Shown: positions 6,387-60,242 of the stretch, piece by piece
Layout: each line of letters opens with the position of its first letter
How positions within the stretch are numbered: the stretch's first letter is position 1
Assembly (NCBI GenBank): GCA_015143295.1
Contig: CM026568.1
Location: forward strand, 21,582,607 to 21,646,606
Direction: 5' to 3'
DNA length: 64,000 nucleotides
Source: Tetracentron sinense
Taxonomy: Eukaryota; Streptophyta; Magnoliopsida; Trochodendrales; Trochodendraceae
The notes under the pieces: model-generated
Database searches by the model: none
What the model was told of the DNA's origin: nothing
Seen by the model: the letters and a program-made list of their open reading frames with translations, nothing else
Made by a program: the position numbers and the translations under genes

Positions 6387-6618
6387 TATTAGACGTAACC
6401 GTAAGAGATCACAAGAGATTGTAATTCTCTTGTGATATCTCCTCTGTTCTGTCAACGGAGTAGAACAACTACTCTGCTCTGTAACAGCTATTCTTTCCTC
6501 TTTTGTAACATTCCTCTTTTATACCATTGTAACAGCTAAGGACCCTTCAATATAAATATTCCACTACTCAATGAGAGTAGACAGGAAAAACATTCCAAAA
6601 GTCATTCCATATTCTTTA
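6387..6618 (+). repeat. 5' LTR of Copia-B
   Basis: A 232-bp LTR directly before the PBS. It contains an exact inverted pair, TCACAAGAGA (6409-6418) and TCTCTTGTGA (6426-6435), that can fold as a short hairpin, and a TATA-like TATAAATA at about 6562. The last ~45 bp are matched in direct orientation at 8168-8223; the rest is matched in reverse orientation at 8009-8167. Confidence 0.8.
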
Positions 6619-6685
6619 TGGTATCAGAGCTCAACGTTCTCCTCTGCTAATTTTTTTTTCTTCTCTTTTTTTTTTTTTTACCACC

Positions 6686-7650
6686 ATGGCCTCCTCAGCT
6701 CCGGCCATCACCAATTCTGAACAGCCCTCCTCTGAACAGCTCGTAACTCCATCATCTCCAGCAATACCTGACTCTGCACAGCCCTCCTCTCTTCCCTCCC
6801 ATCATCCCCATATCATCAACATCTCTCAATTTGTCTCGGTAAAACTTGATGGTCTCAACTACCTACTTTGGAAAAATCAGATTCAACCCATCCTTATTTT
6901 ACAAGATCTCTTTGGTTTCGTGGATGGCAGTCTCCCATCCCCATTGCTATTCCTTGAAAATGGCTTACCCAACCCTGCCTTCTTATCTTGGAAACGTAGT
7001 GACAACTACGTTATGAGTTGTATCAATGCAACTCTCACGGAAGGGATCCTTGCTCAAACCGTTGGACTAAACTCCTCTAGAGCCATTTGGGATCTACTTG
7101 CATCAACTTTTCTGCAGCAATCTGCAATCTCATGTTCGAATGATGCACCTTCGCCTACAGCTGCAAACTCTTCGCAAAGGCGCCACTCCTATGGTTGAGT
7201 TCCTCAACCAATTGAAGACCATTGTCGACTCCTTAACTGCTGTTCAAGACCAAATTTCTGACCGCGACATGGTAATGGTTGCATTGGGTGGCCTACCCTT
7301 GGATTATGAATCCTTCATTACAGCCATCACTAATCGAGTGGAACCGATCTCTTTCTCTGAACTCTGCGCCCATTTGCTCACACATGAACAACGACTTCTT
7401 CAATTTACTCCTCACACCACTCCTGGTGGAACAACAACGGCATTCTTCAGTCACAATACCAAATCTATGAATCAGTCTCGTGGCTGGCATCATGGTTGTG
7501 GGTCCTTCAATCCCAATCGTGGCAATCTGAACCATTCTGCACATCAGCGTTCCATCAGGCCTTGCCCTCTTTTTCAATATCATGGTGATACTTCCGGAAT
7601 TCTTGGTGCCTCTCCCAATCATAGCCCACACCTTCACCGGCCTCACTGTT
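6686..7650 (+). pseudogene. Copia-B gag, frameshifted
   Basis: Begins at ATG 6686 after a Ser/Pro-rich leader. The copia gag core follows (VKLDGLNYLLWKNQI, FVDGS, then YVMSCINATL and RAIWDLLASTF). A frame change near 7110-7150 moves the frame; it then continues with TPMVEFLNQLKTIVDSL, LGGLPLDYESFITAIT and SELCAHLLTHEQRL. The zinc-knuckle region is degenerate, with no intact CCHC, and a stop follows near 7650. Such proteins coat element RNA; this copy is inactive. Confidence 0.8.
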
Positions 7651-7745
7651 AAATTTACTCTCAAAATGGCCACTTAGCAATCCATTGTCACCAACGATTC
7701 AACCATTTTTTTCAAGACGAGCAACTTCTACATGCCTTCGCTGCC

Positions 7746-8008
7746 ATGAACATATCAGCTCCCTATGAAGAACATTGGTCTCCGGATACGGGTGCTACTA
7801 GCCACATGACCCCGGACCCTACTCTCCTTCATCAGCCATCTGAATACCATGGTTCTGATCAGGTTGTTTTCAGTAATGGTCATGGCAACCTCATCTCTTA
7901 TGTTGGTAAATCATCTCTTCCCACCTCTATCTCTAATCTTCCTTTAAGTTCTGTTCTTTTCGTTCCCCATCTAACCAAAAATTTGCTTTCTGTAGCTTCC
8001 TTTACAAA
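7746..8008 (+). pseudogene. Copia-B protease remnant
   Basis: Reads HWSPDTGATSHMT, a degenerate form of the copia aspartic protease active site (normally DSGAT/DTGAT). It continues with VVFSNGHGNLI and VLFVPHLTKNLLSVASFTKWN, the usual link toward integrase. At 8009 the sequence switches into inverted LTR, so everything downstream in pol is lost. Confidence 0.75.
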
Positions 8009-8223
8009 GTGGAATATTTATATTAAAGGGTCCTTAGCTGTTACAATGGTACACAAGAGGAATGGTACAAAAGAGGAAAGAATAACTGTTATAGAACAGA
8101 GTAGAACGTTGACAGATATCACAAGAGAATTACAATCTCTTGTGATCTCTTACGGTTACGTCGAATACTACTCAATGAGAGTATATAGGGAAAACATTCC
8201 AAAAGTCATTCCATATTCTTTTA
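8009..8223. repeat. 3' LTR of Copia-B with an inverted segment
   Basis: 8009-8167 is the reverse complement of the 5' LTR from its first base (TATTAGACG) to about 6574, with some 29 bp lost. 8168-8223 then matches the 5' LTR end in direct orientation (CTACTCAATGAGAGTA to TATTCTTTTA). The inversion breakpoint coincides with the LTR terminus. Confidence 0.82.
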
Positions 8224-8228
8224 GTAAC

Positions 8229-10192
8229 GATCCCAAAACCCCACCTTGCTCATAATGCGACTTTGGGCTGTGACATTTCTTATCCCTGCTTGACTTAATA
8301 GCACACAAGGCAATAACTAAATATTAAGTCTCCAAAAATAGCAACCATAAAATTTCTCTATAAACAAATTAACCAGTATATCATTCGACCAAAATACACA
8401 CAACCCATAGTTTGGATCAACTACTGTGATCTCCAAAATGAAACTAAGTTTGAAGCAACCTCTACTAAAGTATAACATGTCTATTACACTTCTCTCACAT
8501 AGTAAAACTGAAATAAAGACTAACAATAATGGTAACGATCTAAGTCCCTCGCTCCCTCCTCAAACAGATCACTTGCTTCCTCTTCTTCCTGGTATTCATC
8601 CTCAACTCAAGGAGCGGCGGTAGGCTCTTGTGCTAAACTTGACAACAATAACAGGTCGACTGAGTATTGAAAACACTCAGCGGATATCTAGTCTAACTAA
8701 TAATAGCAATAACACATGTACATATTTAATATCCGGTTCATGCGACCGATACATAAGCAATAGCAGTTTCATATGACAATCACATAATCAGAGTGCGGAA
8801 AACATGTGAGTATATCATGTCATCACCTTGACTCGTGTACTTGTATGACACTTGGACTTGTACTATGAATTTCATGTATGCTTGTTTCCCACAAGATAGT
8901 GTTTTAGGTTTTTATATCATATCCATGGAGAGCTGCGACGCGAGCCTAAGCTCCTAGAGCATCCTTGTGATAAAAGTCCATGATGCATATATTACCCAGG
9001 ATTTGCAATCGTATCCATGGAGAGCACACATGATTTCTCGGGCTCCTTGTAATTCAGGGTTCATGATTCAGTGTCCTTGTAATTCATGCACCGTATCTAT
9101 GTCATGCCCACATCATGCTTGTGTACCCGTGAGACTTATAACCAACCATACATGTAAACTTGTGCTTGAGTGTCGTGATTAATATTTGAACTCGGTCATT
9201 TCTTAGATATCGATCATCTGCCAAGAAACTCCACATACATTTACCTGGTTAGAGAATTCCCGACTTGGAAGACTTCTTCTAAGTTTTGGTCTAACCAAAT
9301 GTCGATCACCATACAATATTAGTAGACATAATTTAACATGACAAACATACATATCTCTTTAATCTAATTTCTCAATTTCAATAACACCATCTCAACATTT
9401 AGCATTTCCAAGCATCTGAATAAACACATTCAATCCATTATTTATGTACAATTGTAGTTCCTCCATTTTTAACACTCCATCATCTATTCTCATTCATTAA
9501 TAAACCATAATCATACCATCAAACTCATCCATCATCATTTCCATTCATCTAGAAACCATAACAATGCCATTAGACCAATTCATCATCATTTCCTTCCATT
9601 CACATTCAATATAACAATGTCAAATATCATAATACAACATCTATTCCCTTTATCATGTTTAACAAAACCCATAAAAAAATACAATAATTCATTTCCATTT
9701 TTATACACAATAATCTTCCCAAAATCATGTTAGAAATTCAATAACTTTACATTAATCATGTTAAACCTTCAATAGTCTTGTCTTGATCATGTTCAATCAT
9801 GTAATAAAACATAATAGAGTTAGATTAGAAATGATATCGACCTTAGGAATCATTCCCTTCGATCCAAAACACTTGCAAGAGACTTTGGGGTTGATCTCCA
9901 AGTCAATCTTCTTTTTTTCCAAGCAAAATTCTTCTACCCCAAGCAAATCTCTCTTGAAAACCTAGGATTTTCTCTTCTCCTTTGCCAAATTAGGTTTAGA
10001 ATAGTTAGGAATTCTAAAACCCTTGAATTAGAATGACTATTTATGGCCCGAGGGACTCTAATTTTCGCAACTTTTGAATAATTCTGTGCGCGCGTTCCGA
10101 TCGATCAGAGCTTTGTTGCGATCGACCGGAGCATTTCAGATCGCTGCGATCGATCGGGGCATACCATGCGATCGATCGGAGCTATGCGTTCA
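8229..10192 (-). repeat. Main body of solo LTR A
   Basis: AT-rich LTR sequence with no credible ORF. It includes the R/U5-like half with a partial duplication (8910-9110) and the U3 half with CGATCG palindromes (10098-10185). Apart from the LTR nothing is recognised here. Confidence 0.6.
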
Positions 10193-12420: not shown

Positions 12421-13077
12421 TAACTCTATTGAGATGTTCTATATGTTATAGAAAGCTGGAAATTGAGATCTATGTATGTTTTCGTGTTTTATGCTTAAAT
12501 TATGGATATTAGATTATGAAATGGGAACTTTAGATGATTTAAGAATTTTTATTAATTATATTTCGCTATTATGGAAATGAAATTGTAATTGAATATGATG
12601 AATGAGATGAATGGAGGATGAGAATGAGAATGCTATGGAGGATGGGATGAATGACTGTCTATGGTTTATGGATGATGTGTGTGATGAATGAACTTCAATT
12701 ATGGATGAAATGGTGAAATAGAATGGACTATAGAAGTGAATTGTGATGTTATGTTATTATCATGTTTAAAAGAAATGCATAATTATAATAAGGAAATATT
12801 AATATTTGGTGTGTTAAACTATGCCCTATCTACCTTGTATGGTGATCGGTATTCGGGTAGGTGAAAACATAGAGGAAATCGTCAATGTCGAGAATTCTCT
12901 AACCAGAGAGATTTAACCTGGCGGAGTTTCTTGGCGAAGGATTGGAATCTAATGGAAGACCCATTTGAATTCCAATCATGACACTTGCTCACATTTTCAC
13001 CTGCATGTTAAGAAGTAAGGTTTATGGGTCTACGTGTCTCACAAGATCATGCATTGAACATGTAAATGCCATGTACT

Positions 13078-13282
13078 ATGCTATGAAAGAATGATCCCCT
13101 GGTCACGATCATACCACTCTATGTGTTGCCGCGATATGTGACACATGTCAAGCAGTATGCTATGAAAGAATGATCCCCTGGTTACAAACATACCACTTTA
13201 TACGTTGCCGCGATATGTGATACATGTCAAGCATTATGCTATAAAAGAATGATCCCCTGGTTATGAACATACTACTCTATGC
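13078..13282 (+). repeat. 78-bp minisatellite in LTR B, interrupted by CACTA
   Basis: Three units starting near 13078, 13156 and 13235 (TATGCTATGAAAGAATGATC and variants). The third unit is cut after CTATGC by the CACTA and resumes at 27178 with GTTGTCGCG, matching GTTGCCGCG of the other units. Confidence 0.85.
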
Positions 13283-13302
13283 CACTACTAAACTACATGT
13301 CT

Positions 13303-13680
13303 GTAACAGTGGTTTTTTAACAGCGGTTCTGAGAAACCGTAGTAGCAGGTTACTTATAACAACGGTTCTAAACAACCGCAGTAGAAGTCTAGTTGTCGCC
13401 TCTTTGTAACGGCGGTATTTTAATAACCGCAGTTACTGTATTGATTGCAACGACAGTTTATTAATAAATGCCGTGACAACCTCAATTACCACGACAGTTT
13501 TTTAAAAACCACCGTGACAAATAGTTCCAACCACCTTTTCATCTTCCAGCCCTGTCACTTCCCGCCTTGATTATAGCGGCGGTAAATTTAATAACCGTCG
13601 ATATAAACATTAACAGTAGCTACAGTTTTAAAATAAACGCCGTGATAACTAAATTTTAGTAGCAGTAATTAAATACCGAT
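13303..13680. repeat. Left subterminal repeats of CACTA
   Basis: Repeated GGCGGT/ACCGC/ACGACAGTTT words in both orientations, e.g. AACAGCGGTTCTGAGAAACC and CGGCGGTATTTTAATAACCG. Their mirror set is at 26774-27160. In CACTA elements such short subterminal repeats bind the TNPA-like protein. Confidence 0.75.
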
Positions 13681-16600
13681 GTTACAAATCTTTAAATACT
13701 ACCTCGATGTTTTCCCCTCATTTCATTCTGTTTCATCGATTTTGGCCTCTTGCTTGTGCTCCCCTCTCCTTCTCCATCCTCCGGCCTCCGTGCTCTGGTC
13801 GTTAGCTCCGTGCTCCGATCACCATCTCTGGCAGCACCCTCTCTGGCATCACCCTCTTCGACATCACCCTCTCCCCTCTCCGGCAGCCACACCTCCAGCA
13901 ACACCTCCACCCTCTCCGGTAGCACCTCCACGACCACTCCCCTCTACGGCATCACCATCTTCGGTAAGGCCGTCTTCTTCGGCATCACCCTCTTTGGTAG
14001 TCTCCCCTTTGATTTTTCTTCTTGCATGCATTGAGTATTAAGTGTAGGTTTAATGATTTTAAATGTAGGCCCTCTCCTCGCTGTGCTCTCTCCAGTCGCC
14101 TTCTACGACCACCACCTCCACGGTAGCCACCTCCTGCTTGGCTTCCTGCTCGTAAGTTCTCTCTCTCTATCTCTCCCTCTATCTCTTTCTTTCTCTCCTC
14201 TGAGTGTCTCTCTCTAACTCTCTCTCTCTCTCTCTGCAGGTTAGCTTCTACTGGCCACCCACTCCGGCCACCACAAAAATTGACCATCAAGCTCTGCCAC
14301 AGTAGCAGCTAGCTACCACCCTCCAAGTTAACCTCCACGTTGTTGTGCATAGGTGAGCTCCTTATCCACCCTCTATCTCTCTGTAATTTAGGAGTTTTTT
14401 TAAAAAATTAGTTAATAGAAGGGGAATTAGTTTTAATCTTTTCGTTAGATTGGTGTTAATCTAGTTTAGATTAGTTTAAACCAATTAGTTAGTTTACTGT
14501 TAATCTAATTTATGTTAGTATTAATATTTTTAAGATAAATTGGATTTAGATTTGGTTTGTAAAAAGCTGTTTTTGGTTAGAATAATTAGATTTTAAGTTA
14601 GTTTATTTAATCTAATTAATTTATGTTTGCTTAGAACCAATTAGTTTAGATCGGATTAATTTGATATTTGGTATTAATTTATTTTCTCTAAATTGGTTTA
14701 GGTTAGTAACTAATCTAATTTTTTAGTCATTTATTGATTTTTTTTTAGGTTAAGATAATAATTAGTTTAGTTATTAAATCGGATTCTTAGGTAAATTTTT
14801 AGATATTTAGTAGATTAGTATTAAACTGATATCTGTAGGGTAGTTTAGTCTATGTTTTTATACTTGGTATTAGTTATTAAATCTGATTTTTAAGTTAGTA
14901 GGTTAGTTTAGACTTAATTACCCCCTCCTTTTGGTAATTAAGTCCTGTTTTTTTTTGTTTAGATTACATTAATTAGTTAACCTTAATCTGATTGAACTTA
15001 ATTGTTTAGTTTAATTTGTTTTCTAGATTATTAATTTTAGAACATTCATAATGTTGATTTTCCTACTTTATATAAATGAAATACAAGTCCTGGGGAATTT
15101 ATAATATTTTAACCAAATCCTCTTTTGTTGTTATTAGTTTTATTAAATGTCACGAAATTGGAAATGTTAGGATCATTATGCTTTATCACTTAGTTTAATT
15201 CCTTGACAATTTAGTGAGATTACTATACACTTGATTTGCAGTTCATAATGATTCCCAAAATATGAGATGCTTTATCACTAAGTTTAATGGGTATGCCCCA
15301 TCCAAAAGGTAACAATTGATTGCTTTAGATTCTTGATCATATACATGTTTGAACTTCATAAATTAAGTGACCGTGCTTGACTATCTTGACCATGGGTCGC
15401 CTTAAATCATTGTTTTTAGTGGTTACATTAAAACTTACTAACCATGGTTCAAGAGCAGTTAAATGGACTTTGTGAGGTTATGAAATCTGCTAAGGGCATA
15501 ATCTATGACCAAATCCATGTCCCATAGTCCTTTGCATTAATCCATGGCAAACTCCTTGAGTCCCATAGAGGGTGATAGTGGCCCAACCTAGTTTCCAACC
15601 CAAGAATAAGAAAATCCCAAAAGAAAAATTATTGGATCCACACAATAAACCAATAAAGGTGGTTGGTTTACTAACATATTTCCTTATCTAATGGAGAAAA
15701 TTCTATTTTCACACCACTTTGAAATTACAGAAATACCACGGCCCTGTGAAATTACATAATTGAGAAGTTTTTTTTTTTTAAAAGAATCTATTAAGGCCGA
15801 CCACAACCCCCAATGAGTATCTATTCATGAATTAGAGAGCCTAACATTTAGGCTCTGTTCTTTTGGACAAGAGGCAAGAGTTTGGTACAAGAGGGGAGAA
15901 GGTTTCTAACCTTACATGATGGTATTAGATTTATTGTGTTCAATTTTATTAGTACCAAAAAGCTTAGTCTGCAATATGTTAGATTAGTTGTTTCTTAATG
16001 CTAACATTTGATTAGTTTTGATCTAAAAATAGATTAGTTTTAAGGAAATAGGTTACCATAAAAGCTAGTTCTTAGGTTATCTTTAGCATAGGTTTAGGTT
16101 AGTTAAAGTTTAGTTTTAGGTTAGATCGTAAGATATTTAAAGTCTAATTTGTAAAGTTGTAGTTCAATTTTAACTATGGTCCATAGATAGATTTTAGGTT
16201 AGGCTATTATTAGTATAATATTTCATTTAGTTCTAATGTTAGTTTTTACTAGTTCTAAAGTTAGTCCAAGGTTAGTCCTTAGTTAGTCTAGGGTAGTCCC
16301 AAAATTAACCGTAGGTTAGTCCTTTCATTAGTCTTATATATAGATCTTAACCTATTTAAAAATCTGATCTTTGTTAGTTCTAGTCTAATTATAACTTATA
16401 TATATGTAGGTTATTTTTGGTTAGTTTCTAGGTTAGGACTATCTTAGTCTAAATCATTTTTGGTTAATCTTTCTAGGTTAGTTTAAACTTAGTTAAAATC
16501 TGTTATTTAGTTAGTATTAAATTTGTTTTGGTTAGTTTTAACTTAGGTTTAGGCCAAATTATTTCTTGGTTAGATTTTAGGTTAAATCTTAAGTCATTTA

Positions 16601-17769
16601 AAATTTGACAAGTAGGTTAGTCTTTGACTTAATCTTAGTCTTAGGTTAGTCCTTGATTTAATTGTAGCTTAGCCCTTAAGTTAGTCCTAGGTTAGTACTT
16701 GAGTTAATCATAGGATAGTCCTTAATTCAGTCTTAGGGTAGTCCTCAAGTTAGTCTTGAGTAGTACAAAAGTTCATCTTAATGTTTACTACTCATGTGTA
16801 GCTAAGTTAATCATATCACACATGATGCACTATACGTGTAGCTAACCCATGCATCTCCCTTGACCTTGTCCTAAGGTTAGCCTAACCCTAGTGAACTTAC
16901 TTGACTTTAATACAACCCAACAGTAGTGTGCAGAGAGGAAACTCCTGACTAGCTGAGGAAAAGTTTTGTCTTTCACCCTATCTTTTCTATCAAAAATTTC
17001 CAACAATTGTGTTCATAATATTGAGCTGGCCATAATTGATAATAGTAGATAATTATGATTCCTCCTTGAAATGTCTTTTTGATGGTAATTGTAAATTAGT
17101 ATAAATGTTAACTGTTTAAAATGCTTAAGAGTATATAAACTTCGTGTTTATGATGGTTGGATTTTTGTATTGGTTTAATTTCATACACATGCATGCATAG
17201 AACCTTAGATCTCCCGTTCAAAAATCATTGTGTGACAAGTGCATTTCTTGTATCACCTATTTGGACGGATTACTTGTAAACTATGACGTTTATTTCTCTT
17301 GTGGGCTAAATGTAAGTTAACAACTTTTTGGTATAGTTTGTGATAAAGTGTATTTGTCTGTATATGATTCTTGAATTATCCGGTTGGACAGTTTGGAAAT
17401 GCATAATCTCAAGTATAGTCAGTTGCTCATGTTTTGTCCAGATTGAGAAAAATTTTGTCAGTCGTTTATCTTATTCTCTGGGTACATATTTAGACAATGT
17501 AGAGGGCTTACCCCTAATCTAAGTTGTGTACTTGGAGAACCATAGGGAAATGCTGCTGAAATTTCCTTGAAATTGTACAAAGCACCTGAGCTATTGACTG
17601 ATGGAGATTATGCATTCCTGAATAGGATAAGAACACCCCACCCTTTCAAAGAGGAGTTGATGGCGATAGAAAGCATGCATAAATATTATAATTGACTGAT
17701 GATATCGAACTGTTGCTATTTCTCAGAATAGTAAACGAAGAAGGACTTAGAAATCTTTTCACAACCGTC
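13681..17769 (+). other. Non-coding 5' region of CACTA
   Basis: 13730-14150 is C/T-rich with imperfect GGCAGCACCCTCTC-like repeats; ORFs on both strands there are compositional. A CT microsatellite lies near 14156-14240. 14380-16760 is AT-rich with many degenerate TTAGGTTAGT(C) words, without a fixed period. No protein-coding gene is recognised before the transposase start at 17770. Confidence 0.55.
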
Positions 17770-20700
17770 ATGGATAGGAGTTGGATTGAAATGTCAAGGT
17801 ACCTTCTATTCATAATTTTGTAAACAACATCGAATGATAAAGTGTTAATATCTAAGCAATTGTGAGTGTCTTTTTTGTATTAAATAGGGTTTCAAAGGAA
17901 TATATAAAAGGGATGAAAGAGTTCATAGAGTTTGGGATAGCTCGTGGAGCGACCGATAACACCGGCGGTATAAAGTGTCCGTGCCCCAACTACAACAATG
18001 TCCTTTATCAAGATAAGGTTACAATGGATGAGCATATGATTTGTGATGGTTTTGACTTGAATTATAAGATCTGGTTTCATCATGGGGAGGGCATATTACA
18101 ACACTGACCAGTTACCCAAGTGTCTCAAAATCCTGACATTTGTAGGTTAGACAGACATAATGAGATGAAAGATATGGTGCACAATGTGTTCGGGGTCCCA
18201 AACGAAGATGAGAGTACCAGTAGTCGGGATCCCAATCCTAAGTCTGATAAATTTTTTCAATTGATAAGGGATGCGGGATAACCTTTGTATCCAGCATGTA
18301 AGAATCATACGAAGTTATCTGTCATTGTAAGCTTATATCACATTAAGTGTCTTAGTGGATGGAGCAATAAGTCATTCACCATGTTGCTTGAGTTGTTGAG
18401 GGAGATACTCCCCGAGGGGTCAACACTACCAGATACTTACTTTCAGACAAAAAATGTGATGTTAGACTTGGGGCTTAACTATGATAAAATCGATGCATGT
18501 CCCAATGATTGCATGCTTTACTGGAAAGAGTCTGCAAACAAGACAATATGTGACATCTGTGGTGAATCAAGATGGAAGACAGGGGATGGTTAAGAGGAAC
18601 GCAAGAAGAAAACTCCAGCGAAGATTTTGCGTTACTTCCCGTTAAGACCCAGGTTACAAAGGTTATTCATGTCGTCCAAGATTGCTTCTGAAATGAGATG
18701 GCATGACGAGGGTCGAACTAGGGATGGGAGGTTAAGGTATTCTGCAAACTCACCGGCTTGGGAAAATTTGAAAAAAAAAGTATCCTTTTTTCACTTCAGA
18801 TGCTCAAAATGTCAGGCTTGGGTTGGCGAGTGATGGCTTCAACCCATTTAGGACGATGAGTATTGCTCACAACACATGGCATGTGGTTCTTATTCCCTTC
18901 AACTTACCGCCGTGGCTGTGCATGAAGCAATCGAATTTCATTTTGTCATTGCTTATTCTCGGTCCCTCCGGGCCAGGAAATGCCATTGATGTGTACATGA
19001 GGCCTCTAGCCGAAGAGTTGAAGGACTTGTGGACGAATGAGTGCCAACTTATGATGCATCATAAAAGGAGACATTTGTAATGCATGCGGTATTGCTCTGG
19101 ACCATTAGCGACTTCCTAGGGTATGTCATGTTGTCAGGTTGGAGCACGAAAGAGAAGTTGGCATGCCCTTCATGCCACAAAGACACTTGCCACTTATACC
19201 TGCCTAAAAGTAGAAAGCATTGCTACATGGGGCACCGTCGTTTCTTAACGGTGGATCACAGGTTCCGGAAAAATAGAAACTCTTTCGATGGCAATTCTGA
19301 GTTCAGATGTGCTTCAACTACAATGTCTGAATCCGATGTGATGCATCAGTTGGAGAGTAGTAAATTCTCCCTTGGGAAATAGACTGGGCAAAAACGACCA
19401 CGGCAAACGGGCCATGAGGATATGCCCTATAATTGGAAGAGGACCAGTATATTCTTCGAGTTACAATATTGGGAGCTAAATTTGTTGAGACACAACCTTA
19501 ATGTAATGTATATCGATAAAAATGTATGCGATAATGTGCTCGGGACTTTGTTAGGTATGAAAGGAAAATCTAAGGATGACTTAAAAGCTCGACTTGACTT
19601 GGTTGATATGGGCGTGAGACGTGCACTTTACCTTGAGTTCCAGCCTGACAAAAGCAAAGTTTATCTGCCCCTGTATACTTTTCGATGGACAAGAATGAGA
19701 AAGAGTTGTTTTGTAAGGTTCTAAAGAGTGTGAAGGTTCCAGATGGTTACTCGTCAAATTTTGCAAGACATGTTAATGTGAAAGAGCGTAAAATTTATGG
19801 ATTGAAGAGCCACGACTCTCATATTATAATGCAACAATTCCTAGCATTGGCTTTGAGGAAGGCATTGCCGAAGAATGTAACTTCAGTCCTAATTGAATTG
19901 AGCAACTTCTTTCTGACATTATGTTCCAAAGTCTGTCAGGTCGAGGATTTGAGACGGTTAGAGGAGAAAAGTACGTTTATGCTTTGTCATTTAGAGAGAA
20001 TTTTCCCGCCAGCATTCTTTGATGTTATGGTACACTTGCCTATACACCTGGCCGCAGAGGCAAGACTAGGTGGACCTGTCCAATACCGGTGGATGTATCC
20101 CATCGAAAGGTATGCCATCAATTATAATTTATCGAATGTTGAAACTTCTTGTTATAATTGTCTTGTTGTCTTACCTAAATTTAATTCGCATAGGTACCTA
20201 TATACATTGAGATCTTCTGTCCGTAATCGAGCTCGACCAGAGGGTAGCATTGCAGAAGGATACTTGGTGGAAGAATGCTTGACATATTGCTCAAGGTACC
20301 TAAATGATGTAGAATCGAGATTGAACAAGTCGGTGAGAAATGACGATGAGACTCCAATAGGAGGTGCGCAGCCATTCGCTCTAATTGAATTAGAATGGCA
20401 CCAGATACATTGTTATGTGTTGTTCAACTCTGACGAACTCACAACATATTGAGAGTAAGAAAAATATTATGAAGGCTTTCCTCTATTATCTTTTGTTTAA
20501 ACTCTCAGTTTTCACTTAAAAAAAGGAGATTTGAGCACCACTTGACATCAAATGGTTCCTTACAGTCAGCACACGAATAAACTGAGGATGACCAATCCAA
20601 GACTCATTAGTTCGGCTCCCACGAACTCCAAAAAAGTACAGCGAACAATTTAGCTCGTTATTTAGGGGCTATGTAAGTCCTATTTTTTTAACTGGACACA

Positions 20701-21527
20701 TTTGTTCCCATCCCATTATTAATGTTTTGAGATTTGAATTGATTGCATTTTGGCCTTCAAATAGGTTCAACTACTGCGTTATTCAGGCAACCCGGTGTCT
20801 GACAAGATTACATGGCTCTCATACGGTCCATAAAAAGCCGCAAAAAGGCTTACGAGTTTACGCCATAAATGGATACAAGTTTTGTACAACACTTAAGGAG
20901 CGTGGACGTAAGAGTCAAAATAGTGGTGTTGTGGTCATAACAACGACTACAAGCTATGCAACTTCCAAGGACAGAACCCCCATTGTCACAGATATCACCT
21001 ACTTTGGTCGCTTAATAGAAGTAGTTGAGGTGACGTATTCTGAAAGCTTAAAATTTTTATTGTTTAAGTGCGATTGGGTTGATGTGAAGACACAGGGTAG
21101 AGGAATAAAGACCAATACAATTGGGTTTAAACTCGCGAACTTCACACACTTGCTCCCAGCACACTTAGTGTCGAGTGATCCCTATGTTATGGCATCTCAG
21201 GCAGAGCAGGTATTTTATGTTGAAGATCCAACGGAAGAAGATTGACATGTCGTCATCAAGACTAAACCAAGAGACTTATTTGACATGAATAAAGAATCTC
21301 TTGCGGACGATTATGCATTTAGGGAGAACGAGCCATTCAACGACCAACAGTTGGATGACACCTCACCTGATGATGATGAAGGTGCCAGTTGGGTGAGACT
21401 AGGGATTACTGGAGCAACTGTTGATGCGCCTCCTGAATTGCTACAACAACAAGCATCTTCTACCAAATCCAGTGATGATGAAGTTGAGAATTCAGACTAT
21501 AACGATGAAACGGATACAAACGACTAA
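17770..21527 (+). pseudogene. CACTA transposase (TNP2/TNPD-type), degraded
   Basis: Exon 1 (17770-17798) reads MDRSWIEMS; a GT-AG intron at 17799-17887 follows. Then comes the transposase-associated N-terminal domain (VSKEYIKGMKEFIEFG, GGIKCPCPNYNN, MICDGFDLNYKIW). The TNP2 domain runs about 18290-19700 (LKARLDLVDMGVRR near its end). A DUF4218-like domain runs about 19750-20340 (FFDVMVHLPIHLAAEARLGG, RNRARPEGSIAEGYLVEECL), with an intron at 20110-20193 that rejoins IERYLYTL. A DUF4216-like domain follows at about 20850-21240 (DITYFGRLIEVVEV), then an acidic tail to 21527. In-frame stops (for example 18105 and near 18280) and frame changes show that it is inactive. The family cuts and pastes CACTA ends. 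Confidence 0.88.
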
Positions 21528-21639
21528 TATGTGTCAGCTTATGTAATTGCTCATTGTTGAATGATGTAATTAGTTGCTACGATGTAATTAGTTGCTACCA
21601 TATAATATTTGAAACACATAAATGAATGAGAATTTGACC

Positions 21640-22375
21640 TTTAATATATTATTTTCATGTTAGTGATCTCAATCCACAGACTTTTATATGTTTAAACTCT
21701 CGGTGTATAATAAATATGCTATAGGTTGTTTATGTTTATGTTAGTAAAGAAATTCATAGACTTTTATGTTTTTAAACTCTCGAATTATGATAAATCTGCT
21801 CTAGGTAGTTTATTTTAATGTTAGTGAAGAAATCCATAGACTTAGGTTGGGTTGAAAACTCTTGAATTATGATAAATCTGCTCTATGTTGTGAATTTTCA
21901 TGTTAGTGAAGAAATTCATAGAATTTTATGTGTTTAAACTATGTAATTATGAAAAATCTACTATGAGTTCTTTATTTTCATCTTTGTGAAGTAATGCATA
22001 CACTATTAAATGTTGGTTCTCTGTAATTATGATAAATCTGCTCTAGGTAGTTTATTTTAATGTTAGTGAAGAAATCAATTATGTTTGGTCGAAAACTCTC
22101 GAATTATGATAAATCTGCTCTAGGTTGTGAATTTTCATGTTAGTGAAGAAATCCATAGACTTTTATGTGTTTAAACTATGTACTTATGAAAAATCTGCTC
22201 TGAGTTGTTTATTTTCATGTTAGTGAAGTAATCCATACACTATTAAATGTTGGTTCTCTGTAATTATGAAAAATATGCTCTGGGTTGTTTATTATCATGT
22301 TAGTGAATAAATTCATACACTTTTATGTGTTTAAACTCTGTAATTATGAAATATTTGTGATGAATTGTTTATTTT
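21640..22375 (+). repeat. Degenerate tandem array after the transposase
   Basis: Repeated units of roughly 80-120 bp built from GTTAGTGAAGAAATCCATAG, TTTTATGTGTTTAAACT and ATTATGATAAATCTGCTCT. Unit length varies through internal loss. No coding capacity. Confidence 0.75.
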
Positions 22376-23146
22376 GCATATGGACCCTACACAGTCGTTG
22401 GGGGGGGGGGGGGGGGGGAGGCTGACCTCCGCCCCCAACACATCTGGTGTTGCATTGCCCCATTCCCTCCAGGACCTATTAGGAGGGTTGAGGCAAGAAT
22501 AGAGTCTTGCCCTGCATAGACTACCTCCCGGGGTGAAACAGAGAGTACTGACCGACGATAGAGCGCAACCTGTAGAAAAGGCTGCGAAGATGTTGGCTGA
22601 TTACCTCAGTAATCTTGCCCGGGTGGGCATTTGTTTAGGCTTGATGTGACCGGTTGGATTCTCATCGATGTGGAGCAGAAACAGCGAGCTTTACAGTTGG
22701 TTCGGGTAAGAATAAAAAATATCTGAAATTTGGTTTAATTTTTAGTGGTGGTGGTATTGGTGGTGGGTGGTGGTAGTGGTGATGGTAGTGGTGGTGGGTA
22801 GGTGATGGTGGTGGTGGTGGTAATGGTTGTGGGTGGGTGTATGGTAGTGGTGGTGGGTAGTGGTGGTGGGTAGTGGTGGTGGTAGTGGTGGTGGGTAGTG
22901 GTGGTGGTGGTAGGTAGGTAGGTAGTGGTGGTGGTGGTGGTGGTAGTGGTGGTGGTGGGTAGTAGTCGTGGTGGGTAGTGGTAGTGGTGATGGTAGTGGT
23001 GATGGGTAGTAGTCGTAGTGGGTAGGTGATGGTGTTGGTGGTGGGTAGTGGTAGTGGTGGGTAAGTGTTATTGTTGTGGTGCATGTCAAATGAAACCTTG
23101 AATGTAATTGGCAAAAAAAAAAAAATCTGCCATGCCTTGGTACTAA
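22376..23146. repeat. G-run and GGT microsatellite in CACTA
   Basis: A run of 19 G at 22400-22418, then about 300 bp of unrecognised sequence, then a long GGT/GTG-rich microsatellite at 22742-23070 with interspersed TAGT. The His/Pro/Thr- and Tyr-rich ORFs opposite this repeat are artefacts of composition. Confidence 0.8.
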
Positions 23147-23610
23147 GAGCATTCCTAGCAGCCTTACCAAATTTTACTCACCTAAACCTACAAACTCACA
23201 AAAAGTTATTTTGGTGAGCAACTTTTTTAAAACACTCCCAGTAGCCTCACCATTTTAACTAAAAAAGGAGAGAGAAATAATATTTTATTATTTGTGTGGG
23301 AAAACAAAAAAGAAAGGGCGAGAGAAACATTATTTTATTTTTTGTGTGGGACCACAATAAAGGAAGGAAGAGAGAAACCTTTATTTTATTATTTGTGTGG
23401 GCCCACAAAAAAGGAGGGAAAGAGAAATTTTAGCTTCGGTGAGTGTACAGTAACTCACCAAACTTGGTGAGTACTGTACACTCACCAAACCTAAATCTTT
23501 ATTTTGCTGAGTTTTGGTGAGGCTGCTGGAGAGAGATTTCAGCACTTTTTAGCTATTTGGCTCACCAAAATAACCTTTTGGCTATTTTGGTGAGGCTGCT
23601 AGGAATGCTC
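23147..23610. mobile_element. PIF/Harbinger-like MITE
   Basis: 464 bp with TIR GAGCATTCCTAGCAGCCT and, at the right, AGGCTGCTAGGAATGCTC; TSD TAA on both sides (23144-23146 and 23611-23613). The interior repeats TTTTATTATTTGTGTGGGA three times. A related copy lies at 48223-48556. Classification rests on the 3-bp TAA target and ends of this type. Confidence 0.78.
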
Positions 23611-24014
23611 TAATCCATACTTGGGTTATTTGAAAAGCAATAATAAATTTGATACATAAAAATCAGATATGCTAGGTATTGATGCACACTAGAGTTGTTT
23701 GAAAAGAAACCATGGACATACCTGCCAAAAAACAAATTCTGCCATGTATAGTTATTGGTCTATACTTGAGTTATTTGGAAAGAAAACCATGAATACACTC
23801 ATGTAAAAATCTATCATGTTTAGTTATGGACATATACTTGAGTCATTGTGGATAGAAACCAAGGACATACTTTAGTCACCAAGTCATGCCTAGGCTTTAC
23901 TCGATATATACCTCAGTTGCCTTGGAACGAAACCTTGAATGTAATTGGATAAACATATGTTATACATGGTTCTTGATCCATCCTTGAGTTGTTTGAAAAT
24001 AAACCCGATTAGAA

Positions 24015-24110
24015 TTTGGTGTGAGGTTGTAGGTTTAGGCCAAAGTAGACTTCTAAATCTGGAATTCGGTCTTGTCGGTGCCCAAATCGGGCATCGAAAG
24101 GTGATGATGT
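24015..24110 (+). repeat. Isolated partial unit of the 179-bp repeat
   Basis: Contains GGTTTAGGCC and CGGTGCCCAAATCGGGCA in the same orientation as the array at 25303-26330, but lies left of the SUVR inverted repeat. The inverted repeat is therefore bracketed by the same repeat family. Confidence 0.6.
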
Positions 24111-24198
24111 AACTCCAACATTAGCTAGCGCTAAATTCAAAACAAAGGTAAAGTTTGACCTGCAAATTGCATGTTTTGCCTCGATGTACCACCCACCC

Positions 24199-24654
24199 GG
24201 TTCCTACACTGCTTATTACAACTACATTTACTTAAGACTATACTTGATAAATTTTCTTACTAAATGACCCTCGAAGGTGTCAGGAATGTTCTCATTCTTG
24301 GACTGCTCATGCGGGCACTCGTTACAATAAAAAGTCCTGTCATGTTGAGTTTCATGATTTATAGATGTATATTCGTTTAGAAACTCTTCATTGACCAAGC
24401 CTTCACGTGCGCATGGACACGGAATGGATGATGATAACATACAGTGACCAAACCAACATGAACAACAATATTTACCTTTGGTTATGTCGTTGACATTGTG
24501 GAGGGTTCCGTGCTACTGAACAACCACCAAACTATGTGCATTTGAATAACCTATAGCTTTTTTATTTCTTTCTCTTCTTATCCCTTTCACCATTACAGGT
24601 TTCTGACAACTTTCTTTATGGTTTAGATGGAGGTCATCTAAACCATTTAGAGAT
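24199..24654 (-). pseudogene. SUVR-type histone methyltransferase fragment, inverted arm 1
   Basis: On the minus strand this encodes NVNDITKGKYCC, SSSIPCPCAREGLVNEEFLN, RTFYCNECPHEQSKNE and FEGHLVRKFIK, then, after a frame change, KCSCNKQCRNR. These are pre-SET motifs of plant SUVR1/2/4-type proteins, which methylate histone H3 lysine 9 or act in RNA-directed silencing. It is a diverged inverted copy of 24851-25306; by eye about four in five bases pair. Its upstream part carries stops. The SET domain is absent, so no enzyme can be made. Identification is by remembered family motifs. Confidence 0.72.
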
Positions 24655-24850
24655 AGACGTACGGGACTCTTGATGCCCAAATCGGTCTGACTTCCACATA
24701 CCTAGTCTGAATCCCGTTCTAAAATTAGTTGAAGATAAATATCCTAAATCATATAGAATTATTGAACCTACTTTTTCTTTGATGAAACTGATGAAAGAAT
24801 TGTGTGAATGCTTTTTTGGAAATGGGTACTGATTAGACGGATAACAAACC
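24655..24850 (+). other. Spacer (loop) between the SUVR arms
   Basis: 196 bp separating the arms. On the plus strand it reads SYRIIEPTFSLMKLMKELCE then CFFGNGY and a stop. This may be an upstream exon of the same captured gene, since it lies in the right order and orientation before arm 2. That origin is inference. Confidence 0.45.
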
Positions 24851-25306
24851 ATCTCTGAATGGTTTGGATGACCTCCATCCTAGAAAAGAAGTTGTTGTGA
24901 ACGATACTGGTGCAAGGGATCATAAGAGAAAAAAATCAAAATCCTCAACCTATTCAAATTCACATAGTTTGGTGGTTGTTCAGTACCACGGAATACTCTA
25001 TGATGTTAACGACATAACCAAACATGAATATTGTTGTTCACGTTGTTTTGGTCATTGTATGTCATCATCATCGATTCCGTGTGCATGTTGATGTGAAGGC
25101 CTGGTCAAGGAAGATGTTCTAAAAGAATGTATATCTATGCATCACAGGCCTCACCCTCACCGGACCTTTTATTGTGAAGAGTGTCTGCATGAGCGGAAGA
25201 ATGAGGACAATCCTGACTCATGCAAGGGTCATTTACTAAGAAAATTTATCAAGTATTTTCTTCCATAAATGCGGTTGTAATAAGCCGTGCAGGAACCGAC
25301 CTCGGA
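24851..25306 (+). pseudogene. SUVR-type histone methyltransferase fragment, arm 2 (sense)
   Basis: On the plus strand this gives SNSHSLVVVQYHGILYDVND, then ITKHEYCCSRCFGHCMSSSS and IPCAC, a stop, then EGLVKEDVLKECISMHHR, RTFYCEECLHERKNEDN, CKGHLLRKFIK and KCGCNKPCRNR after a frame change. The cysteine pattern is that of the zinc-binding pre-SET region before the SET domain. Relative to the family, the segment between DITKG and the CC pair and the segment after IPCAC are missing, in both arms alike. No SET domain follows; the sequence runs straight into the 179-bp array. Confidence 0.75.
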
Positions 25307-26335
25307 TTCCAGCTAAATGAATTCTCACACTTAGGTTGGGTCGAAATACACGTGGTTTAAGAAACGGCATCGAAATCCGACCCTCGGTTTGGATTTGGTG
25401 CGCGTTCCTAAGTTTAAGCCGAAGCATACTAACCAAGTATGGATTTTAGTCTCTCGGTGCCCAAATTGGGCAAACAGCCTCGGATTCTGGTGAAACAAAT
25501 TCTCACACTTAGCTTGGGTTGAAATGCACGCGTTAGAAGAAACGACATCAGAATCCGACCCCCGGTTTGGATTTGGTGGGCGTTTCTCAGTTTAAGCCGA
25601 AGCATACTATCCAAGTAAGGAATCCGATCCTCTTAAGGCCCAAATTGGGCAAACGGCCTCGGATTTCGACGAAACGAATTCCCACACTTAGCTTGGGTTG
25701 AAATACACATGTTAGAAGAAACGACATCGAAATCCGACCCCCGATTTGGATTTGGTAGGCGTTTCTCGGTTTAGGCCAAAGCATACTATCCAAGTATGGA
25801 TTCTGGGCCTCTCAGTGCCCAAATTGGGCAAATGGCCTCAGATTCCGGTTAAACGAATTCTCACACTTAGCTTGGGTTAAAATACAAGCGTTAGAAAAAA
25901 TGACATCGAAATTCGAACCCTGATTTGGATTTGGTGGGCGTTTCTCGGTTTAGGCTTAAGCATATTATCCAAGTATGGATTTCGGGCCTCTCGGTGTCCA
26001 AATCGGGCAAATGGCCTCGAATTTTGACGAAATGAATTTCTACACGTAGCTTGGGTCGAAATACACGCGTTAGAAAAAATGGCATTGAAATCCGACCACC
26101 TGTTTGGATTTGGTGGCCGTTTCTCGGTTTAGGCCGAAGCATATTATCCAAGTATGGATTCCGAGCCTCTCGGTGCCCAAATCGGGCAAATGGCCTCCGA
26201 TTTCGATGAAACGAATTCTCACACATAGCTTGGGTCGAAATACACGCGTTATAAGAAACGACATCGTAATTCGACCCCCGGTTTGGATTTGGTGCACGTT
26301 TGTGGGTTTAGGCTAATGAACTAAACCTTTTTGTT
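25303..26335 (+). repeat. 179-bp tandem array (satellite-like) in CACTA
   Basis: Units recur near 25436, 25615, 25795, 25974 and 26153, with a leading partial unit from 25303 and a trailing one to 26335. Landmarks are CCTCTCGGTGCCCAAATCGG, GCTTGGGTCGAAATACACGC and CCGGTTTGGATTTGGTG. Because 179 is not a multiple of 3, the minus-strand ORFs it creates shift frame at each unit and are not genes. Confidence 0.9.
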
Positions 26336-26773
26336 CAACTCAATAACTATGAAATCTTTACGATTATTTTTTTACTTACAAATTTTTGATTGATGTAATT
26401 CATAAATTTTATCATTTTGCTAGTCTAATAATAAATTGTATTTGATTATTTTTGTAGGAGGGTGTCGGTAGCACACATCTGTCAGGTTTTGGAGCAACAG
26501 GAGCGCATCTGTCGGAGGGACCTGCCAGGCAGCTCTAGAAGTTTTTATTTTACATTTGATACATTTTGATGGACATGTATATATATATTGACGGACATTT
26601 TAGATGATTTATTATGGGATTTTTATGGACATGAATTTATATATTTATGGATTATATTTCGGTGTTTAGAACTTTTGTAGATAATTTGAATTTATTTTAA
26701 ATTGCTTACAAGTACAATTAATATAGGTAAAAAAAATGTTATAAATAATTTTTTTTATAAAATTTTTCATTGA

Positions 26774-27160
26774 TTGCGGCGGTTTTAAAGCGCCGTTATA
26801 GATACAGTACAGCAACGACGGTTTAAAATGCCGTTACATATTTACTTTCTAACAACGGTTTTAATCGTCGTTGCAAATTGATTTGGTACGACGGCTCTAT
26901 AATGCCGTTACATAGTCAATATATAACGGCGGTAAAACCGTCGCTACATAGACAATTCGAATGACCGAATTACTCTTTGAATCGCCGTTATAAGTATAAA
27001 AAAATCGCCGTTATAAATGGGCTCTACAGCTGCAAAGATAAAAACCGTCGTAACATCCATTGTGACAGTACCTATAATGGCATTTGTATGTACTGCCGTT
27101 ATATGTGTAACGACGGTTTTATTATTTATGGCAACGGTTTTCAGCCGCCGCAATAGATCA
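26774..27160. repeat. Right subterminal repeats of CACTA
   Basis: Dense GCCGTTATA, AACGGCGGT and AACGACGGTTTT words in both orientations, mirroring the left set at 13303-13680. The stretch between 26336 and 26773 is AT-rich with nothing recognised. Confidence 0.78.
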
Positions 27161-27953
27161 TGAATTTTGTAGTGTGCGTTGTCGCGTTATGTAACAAAAC
27201 ACTATGAATTATGCATTGACGGGACAAAATACTATGAATTATGCATTGACGTGACAATACACTATGAATCATACATCTATAGGTTAAGTTGGTCATCATG
27301 GGCACGTATGAGTCATGCATATGTTTCGCACATGTATATATTTAAGAGTCACACAAGTACACGAGCCAATATAATGATATGTATGCTAGCATGTTTCCGC
27401 ACTTTGATTATGTTTATGTCATAAAAAACTATTATTGATTATGTAGATATGAATCAGATATTGATGTTGATAATGTACATGTATTTTGTGTTGTTAGTTG
27501 GACTGTATATATGTGGAGTGTTTTCAGTACTCAGTTAACCAGTTATTGTCGGCATGTTTAGAGCAGGAATACACGGCGGAGCTGTGGATTGAGGAGACAT
27601 TCGCCGAGGAAGAAGAAGAAGGTGAGCCTCTGGTTGAGGAAGCTCGAGACTGGGATAGGTGGCCATATCATTAGGCTTTCTTTTACTTTTGAAAATGATT
27701 GTAATAGACTCATGTTATTTCAGAATGTTGCTTAGACTGTTTTACTTTTATTAGCGGTTTTGGATTTTCTAAGTATAGTGGGTTATGTTGGGCATATTTC
27801 AGATGTAAAGGATGATTTGAGTTTATATATCAAAATTTTATTATTCTCATTTTTGGAGACTCGTGTTAGTATGCCTTGTAGATTTGTGCAGGTTTAAGAA
27901 ATGTAGCGACCCAATGCCCCATTTTGGTCAAGGTGGGATTTAGGGTCGTTACA

Positions 27954-29891: not shown

Positions 29892-30158
29892 GGTTATGCC
29901 CTTGAGGTTGCCACGTGTCCCTATTGATACCCTTAACTGTGGTTAAGGTTCACCCACCCCGAAGGTTCACCCACCTATCCTTGGTTTTGTTTTTAAATAT
30001 CAAAATTTTTTTCGAACCCTATTTAAAATTCACTACTATTAAGCTTAAAAAATTTTCATTATTTTTTCCTAAAACTAATGATAAGTATGTGAACCGTGAA
30101 TTTTAACCATAGTTAAGGGGTGTCAGTATGGACATGTGGCAACCTCAAGGGCATAACC
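29892..30158. mobile_element. Mutator-like MITE with long inverted ends
   Basis: 267 bp. Left end GGTTATGCCCTTGAGGTTGC, right end GCAACCTCAAGGGCATAACC, exact inverse of each other. Inside each end come CCACGTGTCC/GGACATGTGG and GGTTAAGGTTCACCCACC-type words shared with all other members of this family in the window. No clear 9-bp TSD for this copy. Confidence 0.72.
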
Positions 30159-30993: not shown

Positions 30994-31162
30994 GGGAAAT
31001 GCTACTGAGACCCCTTTAGGGCCGAGACCACCAAGACCGTGCTCTAAGAGCACGGGATTTCAGGTGGCGCCTACCATGTGAAATGGGCCCCACCTGAATC
31101 CTGTGCTCTTAGAGCAAGGTCTCGGTGGTCTCGGCCCTAAAGGAGTCTCAATAGCAAAGTCC
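30994..31162. mobile_element. Palindromic MITE
   Basis: About 169 bp, nearly a perfect hairpin: GAGACCCCTTTAGGGCCGAG on the left against CTCGGCCCTAAAGGAGTCTC on the right, with GTGCTCTAAGAGCAC repeated near the centre. It is nested in the MITE at 30845-32206. Flanked by A-rich sequence, so the TSD cannot be read. Confidence 0.7.
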
Positions 31163-38483: not shown

Positions 38484-38830
38484 TCTTCTCCAATTGTAAT
38501 CGGTTTTGCCAAAACCGGTTACTTCCCCAAGGTGGCCACATGTCTCTTTGGACATCTGTTAACTATGGTTAAGGTTCACTCACCCCTAAGGTTCACCCAC
38601 CTATTCTTTGTTCTTAAAAAAAATAATAAATTTTTTTCTTAGCTGTAGTTAAAATTTACCAACTCCTAGGGTTAATTTTTTTAAAATATTATTTCTAAGA
38701 ACCAAAGAGAGGTGGGTGAACCCTAGGGGTAGGTGAATCTTAACCACAGTTAAGGGGTGTAAACAGAGACATGTGGTAACCATAGGGTTGTAACCGATTT
38801 TGCCCAAAACCGGTTACAACTGGAGATGAT
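38484..38830. mobile_element. Mutator-like MITE
   Basis: Ends are inverted: CTCCAATTGTAATCGGTTTT on the left, AAAACCGGTTACAACTGGAG on the right. Internal landmarks are ACATGTCTC, GGTTAAGGTTCACTCACCCC and their mirror GGGGTAGGTGAATCTTAACC. 38019-38483 and 38831-39189 on either side contain inverted CATGGGCCCCATG and AT-rich sequence but no gene. Confidence 0.68.
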
Positions 38831-44151: not shown

Positions 44152-44546
44152 GGCCCAGGATTCTCTCAAGTTGCAACTTGAGAGAATCTCTCAAGTCGGA
44201 ATCCCTAGAGGTCACCACGTGTCTCCTTTGACACCCTTTAACCATGGGTAAGGTTCACCCACCCCTAGGGTTCAGTCACCCATCCTTGGTTTTTTTTTTA
44301 AATTTTATATTAATTATTATTTTTTAAATAAAAAACTTTTTTTAATATTAAAAAACTCTAAAAACAGTTTTTTAATTTAAAAAATAATAATTAATATAAA
44401 AAAAAAAACCAAGGATGGGTGAGTGAACCCTAGGGGTGGGTGAATCTTACCCATGGTTAAGGGGTGTCAAAGGAGACACGTGGCGACCTCTAGGGGTTCC
44501 AACTTGAGAGATTCTCTCAAGTTGCAACTTGAGAGAATCCACTCCC
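44152..44546. mobile_element. Mutator-like MITE in the MYB promoter region
   Basis: 395 bp with a perfect 9-bp TSD TAAAGGTAA at 44143-44151 and 44547-44555, the Mutator signature. Ends GGCCCAGGATTCTCTCAAG and, from the right, GGGAGTGGATTCTCTCAAG. Long inverted arms of about 150 bp include CCACGTGTCTCC and its mirror. It ends about 340 bp before the TATA box of the MYB gene. Confidence 0.9.
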
Positions 44547-44888
44547 TAAAGGTAATTACAATAACAAATAATGCTGTAAAGTTAGGTGATTCTCCTTTCA
44601 TATCTCAAATGGGTCAACCCATCTCTATTTTACAACTACTGTCGATCTTTTAAGCAACACGAGATTTATCAATGAGACTTGTTATTACAATGAGACTTGT
44701 CAACCCATCTCGAGCAATAGGTGTAATTTTTATTTTATTTTTTGGATTTGTTAGTTGGACTGGTAGATAATTGATATTTGGGAAGAATTACTGTTCTCAT
44801 ATGAAGTTATCACATGGCATTTTCTCATGCCCTTGTGGTTAGGACATAGGAAACTCTCCGGAAGCCTGAAAAAGGGATTAAAATAGCA

Positions 44889-44896
44889 TATAAATA
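44889..44896 (+). promoter_or_regulatory. Probable TATA box of the MYB gene
   Basis: TATAAATA 100 bp before the first (frameshifted) ATG at 44996 and about 280 bp before the ATG of the intact exon copy. Position and motif only. Confidence 0.5.
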
Positions 44897-44982
44897 AGTG
44901 GGGTTGGAGGCTATGAAATTTGAAACCAGCTTAGTGAGTTTGACTCACAAGTACGCATGCTCTCTTAGTAGGTAAAAATATA

Positions 44983-45340
44983 ACACCACCCGGATATGGA
45001 GAGTTCGCTGGTGTAAGGAAAGGTGCATGGACACCTGAAGAAGATCTTCTTCTAAGGGAATGCGTTGAGAAGTACGGAGAAGGAAAGTGGCATCAAGTTC
45101 CTTTCAGAGCTGGTACGTAGTACTGGGATTTGCTTAATGAGAGTACATTTTTCATTCTATTCGACACCACCCGGATATGGAGAGTTCGCTGGGTGTAAGG
45201 AAAGGTGCATGGACAGCTGAAGAAGATCTTCTTTTAAGGGAATGCGTTGAGAAGTATGGAGAAGGAAATTGGCATCAAGTTCCTTTCAGAGCTGGTAGTA
45301 CTGGGATTTGCTTAATGAGAGTACATTTTTCATTCTATTC
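44983..45340 (+). repeat. Tandem duplication covering MYB exon 1
   Basis: Two nearly identical units of about 180 bp (44983-45162 and 45163-45340), each with the end of the 5' leader, exon 1 and the start of intron 1. Unit 1 lacks one G in the CTGGGTG of unit 2 and has GTACGTAG instead of GTAG at the exon end. Few other differences, so the duplication is recent. Confidence 0.9.
44996..45112 (+). pseudogene. First, frameshifted copy of MYB exon 1
   Basis: Begins ATG GAG AGT TCG CTG GTG TAA, so translation stops after six residues because one G is missing. The remainder still encodes the R2 start in another frame ([20 protein letters not shown]). It keeps a splice donor at 45113. If transcribed together with copy 2 it would act as a short upstream ORF. 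Confidence 0.85.
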
Positions 45341-58558: not shown

Positions 58559-58694
58559 CTGTGCGATTAAGTAACTACTATTAGTAGATTTCAAACAATC
58601 ACAAGCATCATACATAGAATAACCCTTAGTATAAATAATCACATAATAAACCATAGAAATTTTACACAACTTAGACTCTAGAATTTTTGCGTAC
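58559..58694 (-). other. Probable intron between gag and pol
   Basis: 136 bp, AT-rich, minus strand: donor CAAG|GTACGC, acceptor CGCACAG|GTGC, branch-like TACTAAT about 25 nt before the acceptor. Unspliced, gag ends at GTQKF and a stop just inside it. Spliced, the frame runs [15 protein letters not shown] directly into protease, as in related elements with one gag-pol ORF. Confidence 0.75.
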
Positions 58695-59931: not shown

Positions 59932-60242
59932 GATTTCTCCTGAGATCGACAATACAACATGAGTCTAACTTGAATACGCATTTAGCACAAATTTCGCAAT
60001 TCGCTCAATACATGTTCATCAAGCATATTTAATAAGCACAACACAATTAATGCACATATGGTATACAACACAACATCATCCATACAATCCGTGTTCCTAG
60101 CGTAGGACTCTAAGTTTGGTTGAGATTCAACCCATTTTGACTAAGACTAACTTGTTAGTCTATACTTGGAATACAACTCTCTAAGGTGATTCTAATACCT
60201 TGTTCAATCATCCAAGTGACCCTAGGGACTCTAATGCCTAGA

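Follow-up and report, generated by a model that had tools for sequence, protein, structure and literature searches.

The window analysed here is a 64,000-nucleotide stretch of Tetracentron sinense DNA (assembly GCA_015143295.1, contig CM026568.1, positions 21,582,607 to 21,646,606), and all positions below are those of the window. It contains a CACTA (En/Spm-type) DNA transposon of 13,892 bp on the + strand (13283..27174), inside which two SUVR-like sequences face each other as the arms of an inverted repeat. The original prediction had placed inverted arms around a 196-bp spacer within a bounded CACTA having the target-site duplication TGC, and both parts were borne out, the first by arms at 24198-24654 and 24851-25298 with 81% identity and the second by termini at 13283 and 27174 that enclose transposase domains. 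At the left end CACTAC starts at 13283 after TGC (13280..13282), and at the right end GTAGTG runs to 27174 and is followed by TGC (27175..27177). This end pair was chosen from lists of motif positions; ranked pairs needed at least 11 of 14 terminal nucleotides alike, and the chosen ends, compared by eye, are identical at 10 of 14, below that cut-off. Since unrelated CACTA-end pairs within the window are alike at up to 12-13 of 14 nucleotides, and two such pairs have identical 3-bp flanks as well, the terminal match is weak against chance pairs, and the boundaries therefore rest on the TGC pair, the enclosed transposase domains and the repeats near the ends. With a counted motif set applied to the whole window, subterminal-type motifs reached at least three per 500 bp solely at 26500-27499, the left end staying below this density; related AACGG-type repeats were seen at the left end by eye only, and a blastn comparison of the left with the right end gave a best E of 0.002.

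Between these ends, Pfam identified the tnp2-type domains Transpos_assoc, Transposase_21, DUF4218 and DUF4216, which together with the open reading frames mark a broken transposase region at 17886..21242 (+ strand). Transposase_21 was matched with E values of 1.8e-41 and 2.7e-32 in two ORFs lying in different frames, and because of this split the element copy looks non-autonomous. Having inverted termini, a 3-bp target duplication and a tnp2-type transposase, the element is a CACTA, and its transposase is broken. Two short ORFs in 22377-22643, considered for the second gene of a CACTA, had no match in Pfam; the hairpin described below may lie inside an intron of such a gene, on a by-eye reading of a donor-like site at 22706 and an acceptor-like site at 26457. 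The CACTA also contains a MITE-like insertion at 23147-23610, which is flanked by TAA on either side as judged by eye, has inverted ends around AGAGCATTCCTAGCAGCC/GGCTGCTAGGAATGCTCT, and which we take to be PIF/Harbinger-like.

The anatomy and the folding potential of the inverted repeat are directly established. The left arm (24198-24654, 457 nt, - strand) and the right arm (24851-25298, 448 nt, + strand) flank a spacer of 196 nt (24655..24850, + strand), and their alignment holds 363 matches, 85 mismatches and 9 gap columns; at 81% identity the hairpin is thus imperfect. RNA of the + strand has a minimum free energy of -558 kcal/mol, as compared with a mean of -263.4 (sd 8.5) for dinucleotide shuffles (n=40), and RNA of the - strand reaches -531 kcal/mol. 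In the predicted fold, the right arm pairs with 383 of the 456 left-arm bases, G:U pairs accounting for 26 of these. When G:U is counted as paired, 332 of 437 stem windows of 21 columns have at most four unpaired positions on the + strand and 291 on the - strand, while fully paired windows number 21 and 5, respectively, so that the stem would on paper make a fair Dicer substrate. Folding by itself tells little, since 32.5% of maize CACTA elements are reported to carry a hairpin of at least 21 nt (PMC10760457) and short hairpins are common there. Rfam at its gathering threshold gave no match in 13000-27500, and a known RNA family was accordingly rejected as the identity of this region.

We then asked which gene the arms come from. 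Searching the right-arm frame against 5.8 billion proteins, 2 of 37 candidates passed an E of 0.001, and the better one, which matches with an E of 3.2e-17 and 37% identity over 97% of the query, carries PF05033, PF00856 and PF10440 and so combines Pre-SET, SET and WIYLD domains. As this combination is the make-up of SUVR1/2/4-type proteins, the donor belongs to the SUVR1/2/4-type family, and the domain content of P0001, P0009 and P0015 was counted as further support for this identity. A second protein search returned 1154 relatives, and among the 120 matches listed many are named SUVR2, SUVR1 or SUVR4. A set of 121 SUVR proteins, made up of P0001, P0002 and the other matches listed of the 1154 and leaning towards relatives of P0001, was run by tblastn against the whole window; all 571 rows obtained at E 1e-3 start between 24,000 and 25,400, and the best scores on both arms belong to two Nelumbo SUVR2 proteins among the 121 listed. 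Consequently, the SUVR-type pre-SET character predicted for the arms stands on both the protein search and tblastn. The SUVR sequence is not confined to the arms: the spacer is SUVR-derived as well at 24683-24826, which encodes the SUVR linker RSDFHIP...KLVEDK...LMKELCECF (tblastn E 9e-15 with P0015), and the antisense copy reaches beyond its arm to about 24151 with VVxRGxTCNLQV (tblastn). Because the spacer is also SUVR, spacer and right arm form one sense fragment (24683..25299, + strand; linker through pre-SET to KCGCNKPCRNR by translation and tblastn), and the left arm is part of an antisense copy (24151..24654, - strand; SLNGL... to ...VVxRGxTCNLQV by the inverted repeat and tblastn of Nelumbo SUVR2 proteins).

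Both SUVR copies are interrupted by stops and frame changes, and the 3' cysteine cluster is out of frame in each. At E 1e-3, the tblastn matches of the element span the region from the linker to just before SET; judged from these matches, what the element carries is a SUVR fragment and not a SUVR gene, the N-terminal WIYLD and the SET domain being absent. Pfam Pre-SET gave no match on the arm fragments, and the one sub-threshold Pfam match on them, DUF629, was taken as noise. The 94-aa ORF of the left arm had no counterpart among solved structures at E 10, and no relative comparable to it in length turned up in the protein collection, the latter search saying little as it requires three shared 5-residue words. 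By eye only, two possible intron remnants were noted, a CAG/GT after NLQ in the antisense copy (24157-24162) and, alike in both arms, a TATTTTCTTCC-type filler that replaces ECWS (25254-25266); if true, they would point to capture from genomic DNA.

Whether the two copies go back to one capture or to two was judged mainly from deletions that they have in common. A segment of ~44 residues after DITK and another of ~10 residues after CACAR are missing from both arms, and either is missing in 0 of the 121 listed SUVR proteins; ~7 residues before LHDVND are also missing from both arms, where the segment is short in a single one of the 121, and the ECWS codons are replaced by similar sequence in both. 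In a FastTree analysis with 44 of the 121 listed proteins, hand-picked for named range, the arms formed a clade at 0.974 and grouped with core eudicots and unnamed sequences at 0.89. Independent captures of two oppositely oriented fragments would account for the fact that each copy holds SUVR sequence missing from the other, the 5' linker being found by tblastn in the sense copy alone and VVxRG..NLQV in the antisense copy alone, and they would also suit the right-arm protein, which resembles the left arm less closely (58% of 127 residues identical) than it does the SUVR proteins of Macleaya (64% of 106) and Nelumbo (60%). The two large deletions, common to both arms and seen in none of the listed proteins, and the sister position of the arms in the tree argue against it, and we disfavour two separate captures as highly improbable. 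Since the shared deletions outweigh the closeness of the right arm to Macleaya and Nelumbo, we read the pair as one capture followed by inverted duplication, and a single origin of both arms appears well supported. Among 60 columns conserved in at least 70%, both arms are intact at 36, the left alone is changed at 12 and the right alone at 5; 4 columns are changed identically in both, one of these sitting at a deletion edge where it may be an alignment effect, and 3 are changed differently in both. Most of the changes being confined to one arm, most of the decay postdates the duplication.

The surroundings of the SUVR pair suggest how such a duplication could have come about. A tandem array of a 179-bp unit, 5.7 copies long (25300..26313, + strand, TRF), begins right where the sense SUVR copy ends; a remnant of this unit, likewise oriented, lies at 24002..24093 and ends at unit phase 173 (+ strand, blastn E 2.6e-12), and a short one at 24662..24685 between the SUVR copies ends at unit phase 170 (+ strand, blastn E only 0.64). 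A score no lower than that of this 24-bp remnant was reached in 2 of 1910 random 46-bp pieces of the window. As unit remnants flank the pair, the capture sits inside the array. Both SUVR copies appear to abut the 179-bp unit at nearly the same point, from which we infer a duplication within the array and then an inversion of one copy. Such a setting, with remnants on both sides, is what would be expected if the fragment had been captured by chance, duplicated and inverted through array rearrangement and never been useful to the element. Gene fragments are indeed reported to be carried by DNA transposons of several superfamilies including CACTA (PMC8903248), and the neutral-like divergence of the arms described below is in keeping with an inert passenger. 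It would leave the origin from a silencing gene unexplained, though one case cannot show enrichment, and the in-frame deletions are slightly odd under pure decay; we regard it as plausible, if well short of an even chance.

Next, we compared the arms for signs that either the hairpin or a protein had been kept. The arm-against-arm dN/dS is 0.67 (bootstrap 0.42-1.12) over 134 codons and 0.70 (0.36-1.57) across the 101 codons from YSN on, and the differences fall about evenly on the three codon positions (34/29/35). On the + strand, 27 G:U face 17 A:C in the stem (p 0.17), a bias that leans towards upkeep and is not significant, and the ratio becomes 27:23 once short flanks are included. The longest perfect run between the arms measures 25 nt, whereas 99 mismatches scattered at random over the 464 columns that the alignment with short flanks comprises give a mean of 20.9 (P 0.19). 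An unusually conserved 21-25-nt block between the arms was not found, and neither was a MIRNA-type miRNA/miRNA* duplex conserved above the rest of the stem. Taken together, four tests gave no sign of hairpin upkeep, and the decayed arms look as if they were drifting and not kept.

One reading frame, SLNGL...FIK, is nonetheless kept through three shared deletions in both arms (24852-25253 and 24243-24653), with one stop in each arm. Plain decay predicts three frame-keeping shared deletions about 1 time in 27 and cannot explain this frame well, so that a past coding phase is conceivable, in which the element encoded a short SUVR-derived pre-SET protein, possibly dominant-negative, that was later duplicated and lost. 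The frame and a dN/dS point estimate below 1 speak for such a protein. The interval of dN/dS, on the other hand, includes 1, variation is spread about evenly over the codon positions, neither copy has its 3' cysteine cluster in frame, and the left arm has lost two cysteines that every or nearly every one of the 121 listed proteins has and that we take to be zinc-binding. On balance, we consider a former coding role very unlikely.

A close parallel to this locus is known from rice, and the likeness to miR820 and OsDRM2 that had been predicted holds, since a rice CACTA is described as carrying a fold-back that resembles OsDRM2 (PMC3459959). According to that report, pre-miR820 is present in five CACTA copies, and its fold-back is similar to both exon and intron parts of OsDRM2; the mRNA of OsDRM2 was observed to be cleaved in a miR820-dependent manner, and knock-down of OsDRM2 raised the expression of several transposons (PMC3459959). 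At both loci an internal fold-back resembles a host silencing gene, and an anti-silencing role has been proposed for the one in rice (PMC3459959). The two differ in that the donor there is DRM2 and here a SUVR1/2/4-type gene, in that the host there is rice and here probably a eudicot, and in that the product there is a miRNA and here would be a long imperfect hairpin. A fold-back derived from a silencing gene thus lies inside a CACTA here as in the miR820 case, and, by analogy, the locus shares the design of that system and not its proof.

By this parallel, hairpin small RNAs could, like miR820 acting on OsDRM2, lower a host SUVR gene on which transposon silencing depends. The same superfamily and layout as in rice, with a fold-back like a silencing gene in a CACTA (PMC3459959), would suit such a counter-defence, and so would the reported action of SUVR2, which has no histone methyltransferase activity, in the transcriptional silencing of some RdDM loci and of many other loci (PMC4260354). 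The hairpin is moreover stable on both strands (-558 and -531), and the right arm retains 48 of the 60 conserved SUVR positions. Against it stand the drift of the arms without detectable upkeep, the broken transposase of this copy and the want of an unusually conserved 21-25-nt block, and we judge it unlikely. Equally doubtful is the wider claim that a second, independent CACTA lineage may have evolved a hairpin against SUVR1/2/4, the inverted pair being the remains of a trans-acting RNA weapon from which siRNAs matching the host SUVR gene could still arise. Of the predicted silencing by the hairpin, the CACTA, the SUVR donor and the foldable inverted duplication held up; its output of small RNAs and the lowering of SUVR expression found no support, and the arms point to drift and not to upkeep.

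Other systems of captured or inverted sequence resemble the locus in part. In Pack-CACTA and other Pack-TYPE elements a host gene fragment likewise lies between CACTA ends; the survey of these separates elements with a transposase match (PMC8903248), whereas a broken transposase is present here, and the fragment here is inverted-duplicated. We rejected Pack-CACTA, a fragment-bearing CACTA without transposase, as a class for this element, inside which transposase remains. In maize, captured fragments are cited in a 2026 review as siRNA reservoirs affecting donor genes; as might hold here, they may yield siRNAs against both the transposable element and the donor gene, and they differ in concerning Helitrons, Pack-MULEs and Sireviruses and 1629 donor genes at large (PMC13317346). 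The word hairpin is absent from that gene-capture review (PMC13317346). In Drosophila, TART elements are described as targeting the piRNA machinery, TART-A sequence being reported inside the host gene nxf2, in this case with a retrotransposon and an animal piRNA pathway (PMC7785250). In the literature searched, which covered few subscription journals, no paper joined CACTA, SUVR and a gene fragment. Mu killer of maize is an inverted duplication derived from a transposon itself, which gives rise to a silencing hairpin against that transposon. The inverted duplication is common to Mu killer and our locus; the arms come from the transposon there and from a host gene here.

In our preferred reading, to which we assign a rough probability of 0.62, a CACTA captured a SUVR1/2/4-type fragment that underwent inverted duplication and is now mainly a cis-acting or inert decayed hairpin; these odds overlap with those of the inert passenger, from which the reading differs on function only, and the odds of the alternatives are partly non-exclusive, as some concern history and others function. 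The CACTA would have taken up part of a host SUVR1/2/4-type gene, comprising the linker and pre-SET, into its internal 179-bp array, and the fragment would then have been copied and one copy inverted, leaving sense and antisense SUVR units facing each other. Read-through RNA would fold into an imperfect hairpin of ~450 bp, from which Dicer-like enzymes could release RNAs of 21-24 nt. At present, these small RNAs would probably act above all by silencing the CACTA family, the host SUVR gene being affected weakly and incidentally, if at all. If a genuine counter-defence role ever existed, it is more likely to belong to the past than to the present, and the locus is a genuine and unusual instance of the miR820-type design and by now probably a relic. 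Should CACTAs have repeatedly made hairpins from silencing genes, counter-defence by gene capture would be a recurrent strategy and not a rice curiosity; should counter-defence fail, the locus would still be a clear example of captured fragments becoming inverted repeats. Inverted repeats from captured fragments have been proposed as a first step to new miRNA genes.

Further repeats and ORFs were observed in the window outside the CACTA. A Ty3/gypsy retrotransposon with a chromodomain occupies 55228-59964 on the - strand and has gag, protease, RT, RNase H and integrase; identical 100-aa ORFs at 53659-53961 and 61147-61449 suggest its LTRs. Copia-type gag and Pol_BBD ORFs lie at 6581-8252, much of them enclosed by a 97-bp inverted repeat of 93% identity (6469-6565/8008-8104), and a MYB-type ORF with a partial Myb domain is found at 49756-50271. 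Nested inverted repeats of related sequence at 44158-46037, with arms 91-93% alike, are 77-80% alike to 38504-38808 and 29930-30012 and probably constitute a MITE family. Finally, a compact fold-back at 31000-31156 has 60-nt arms of 92% identity around a 37-nt loop.
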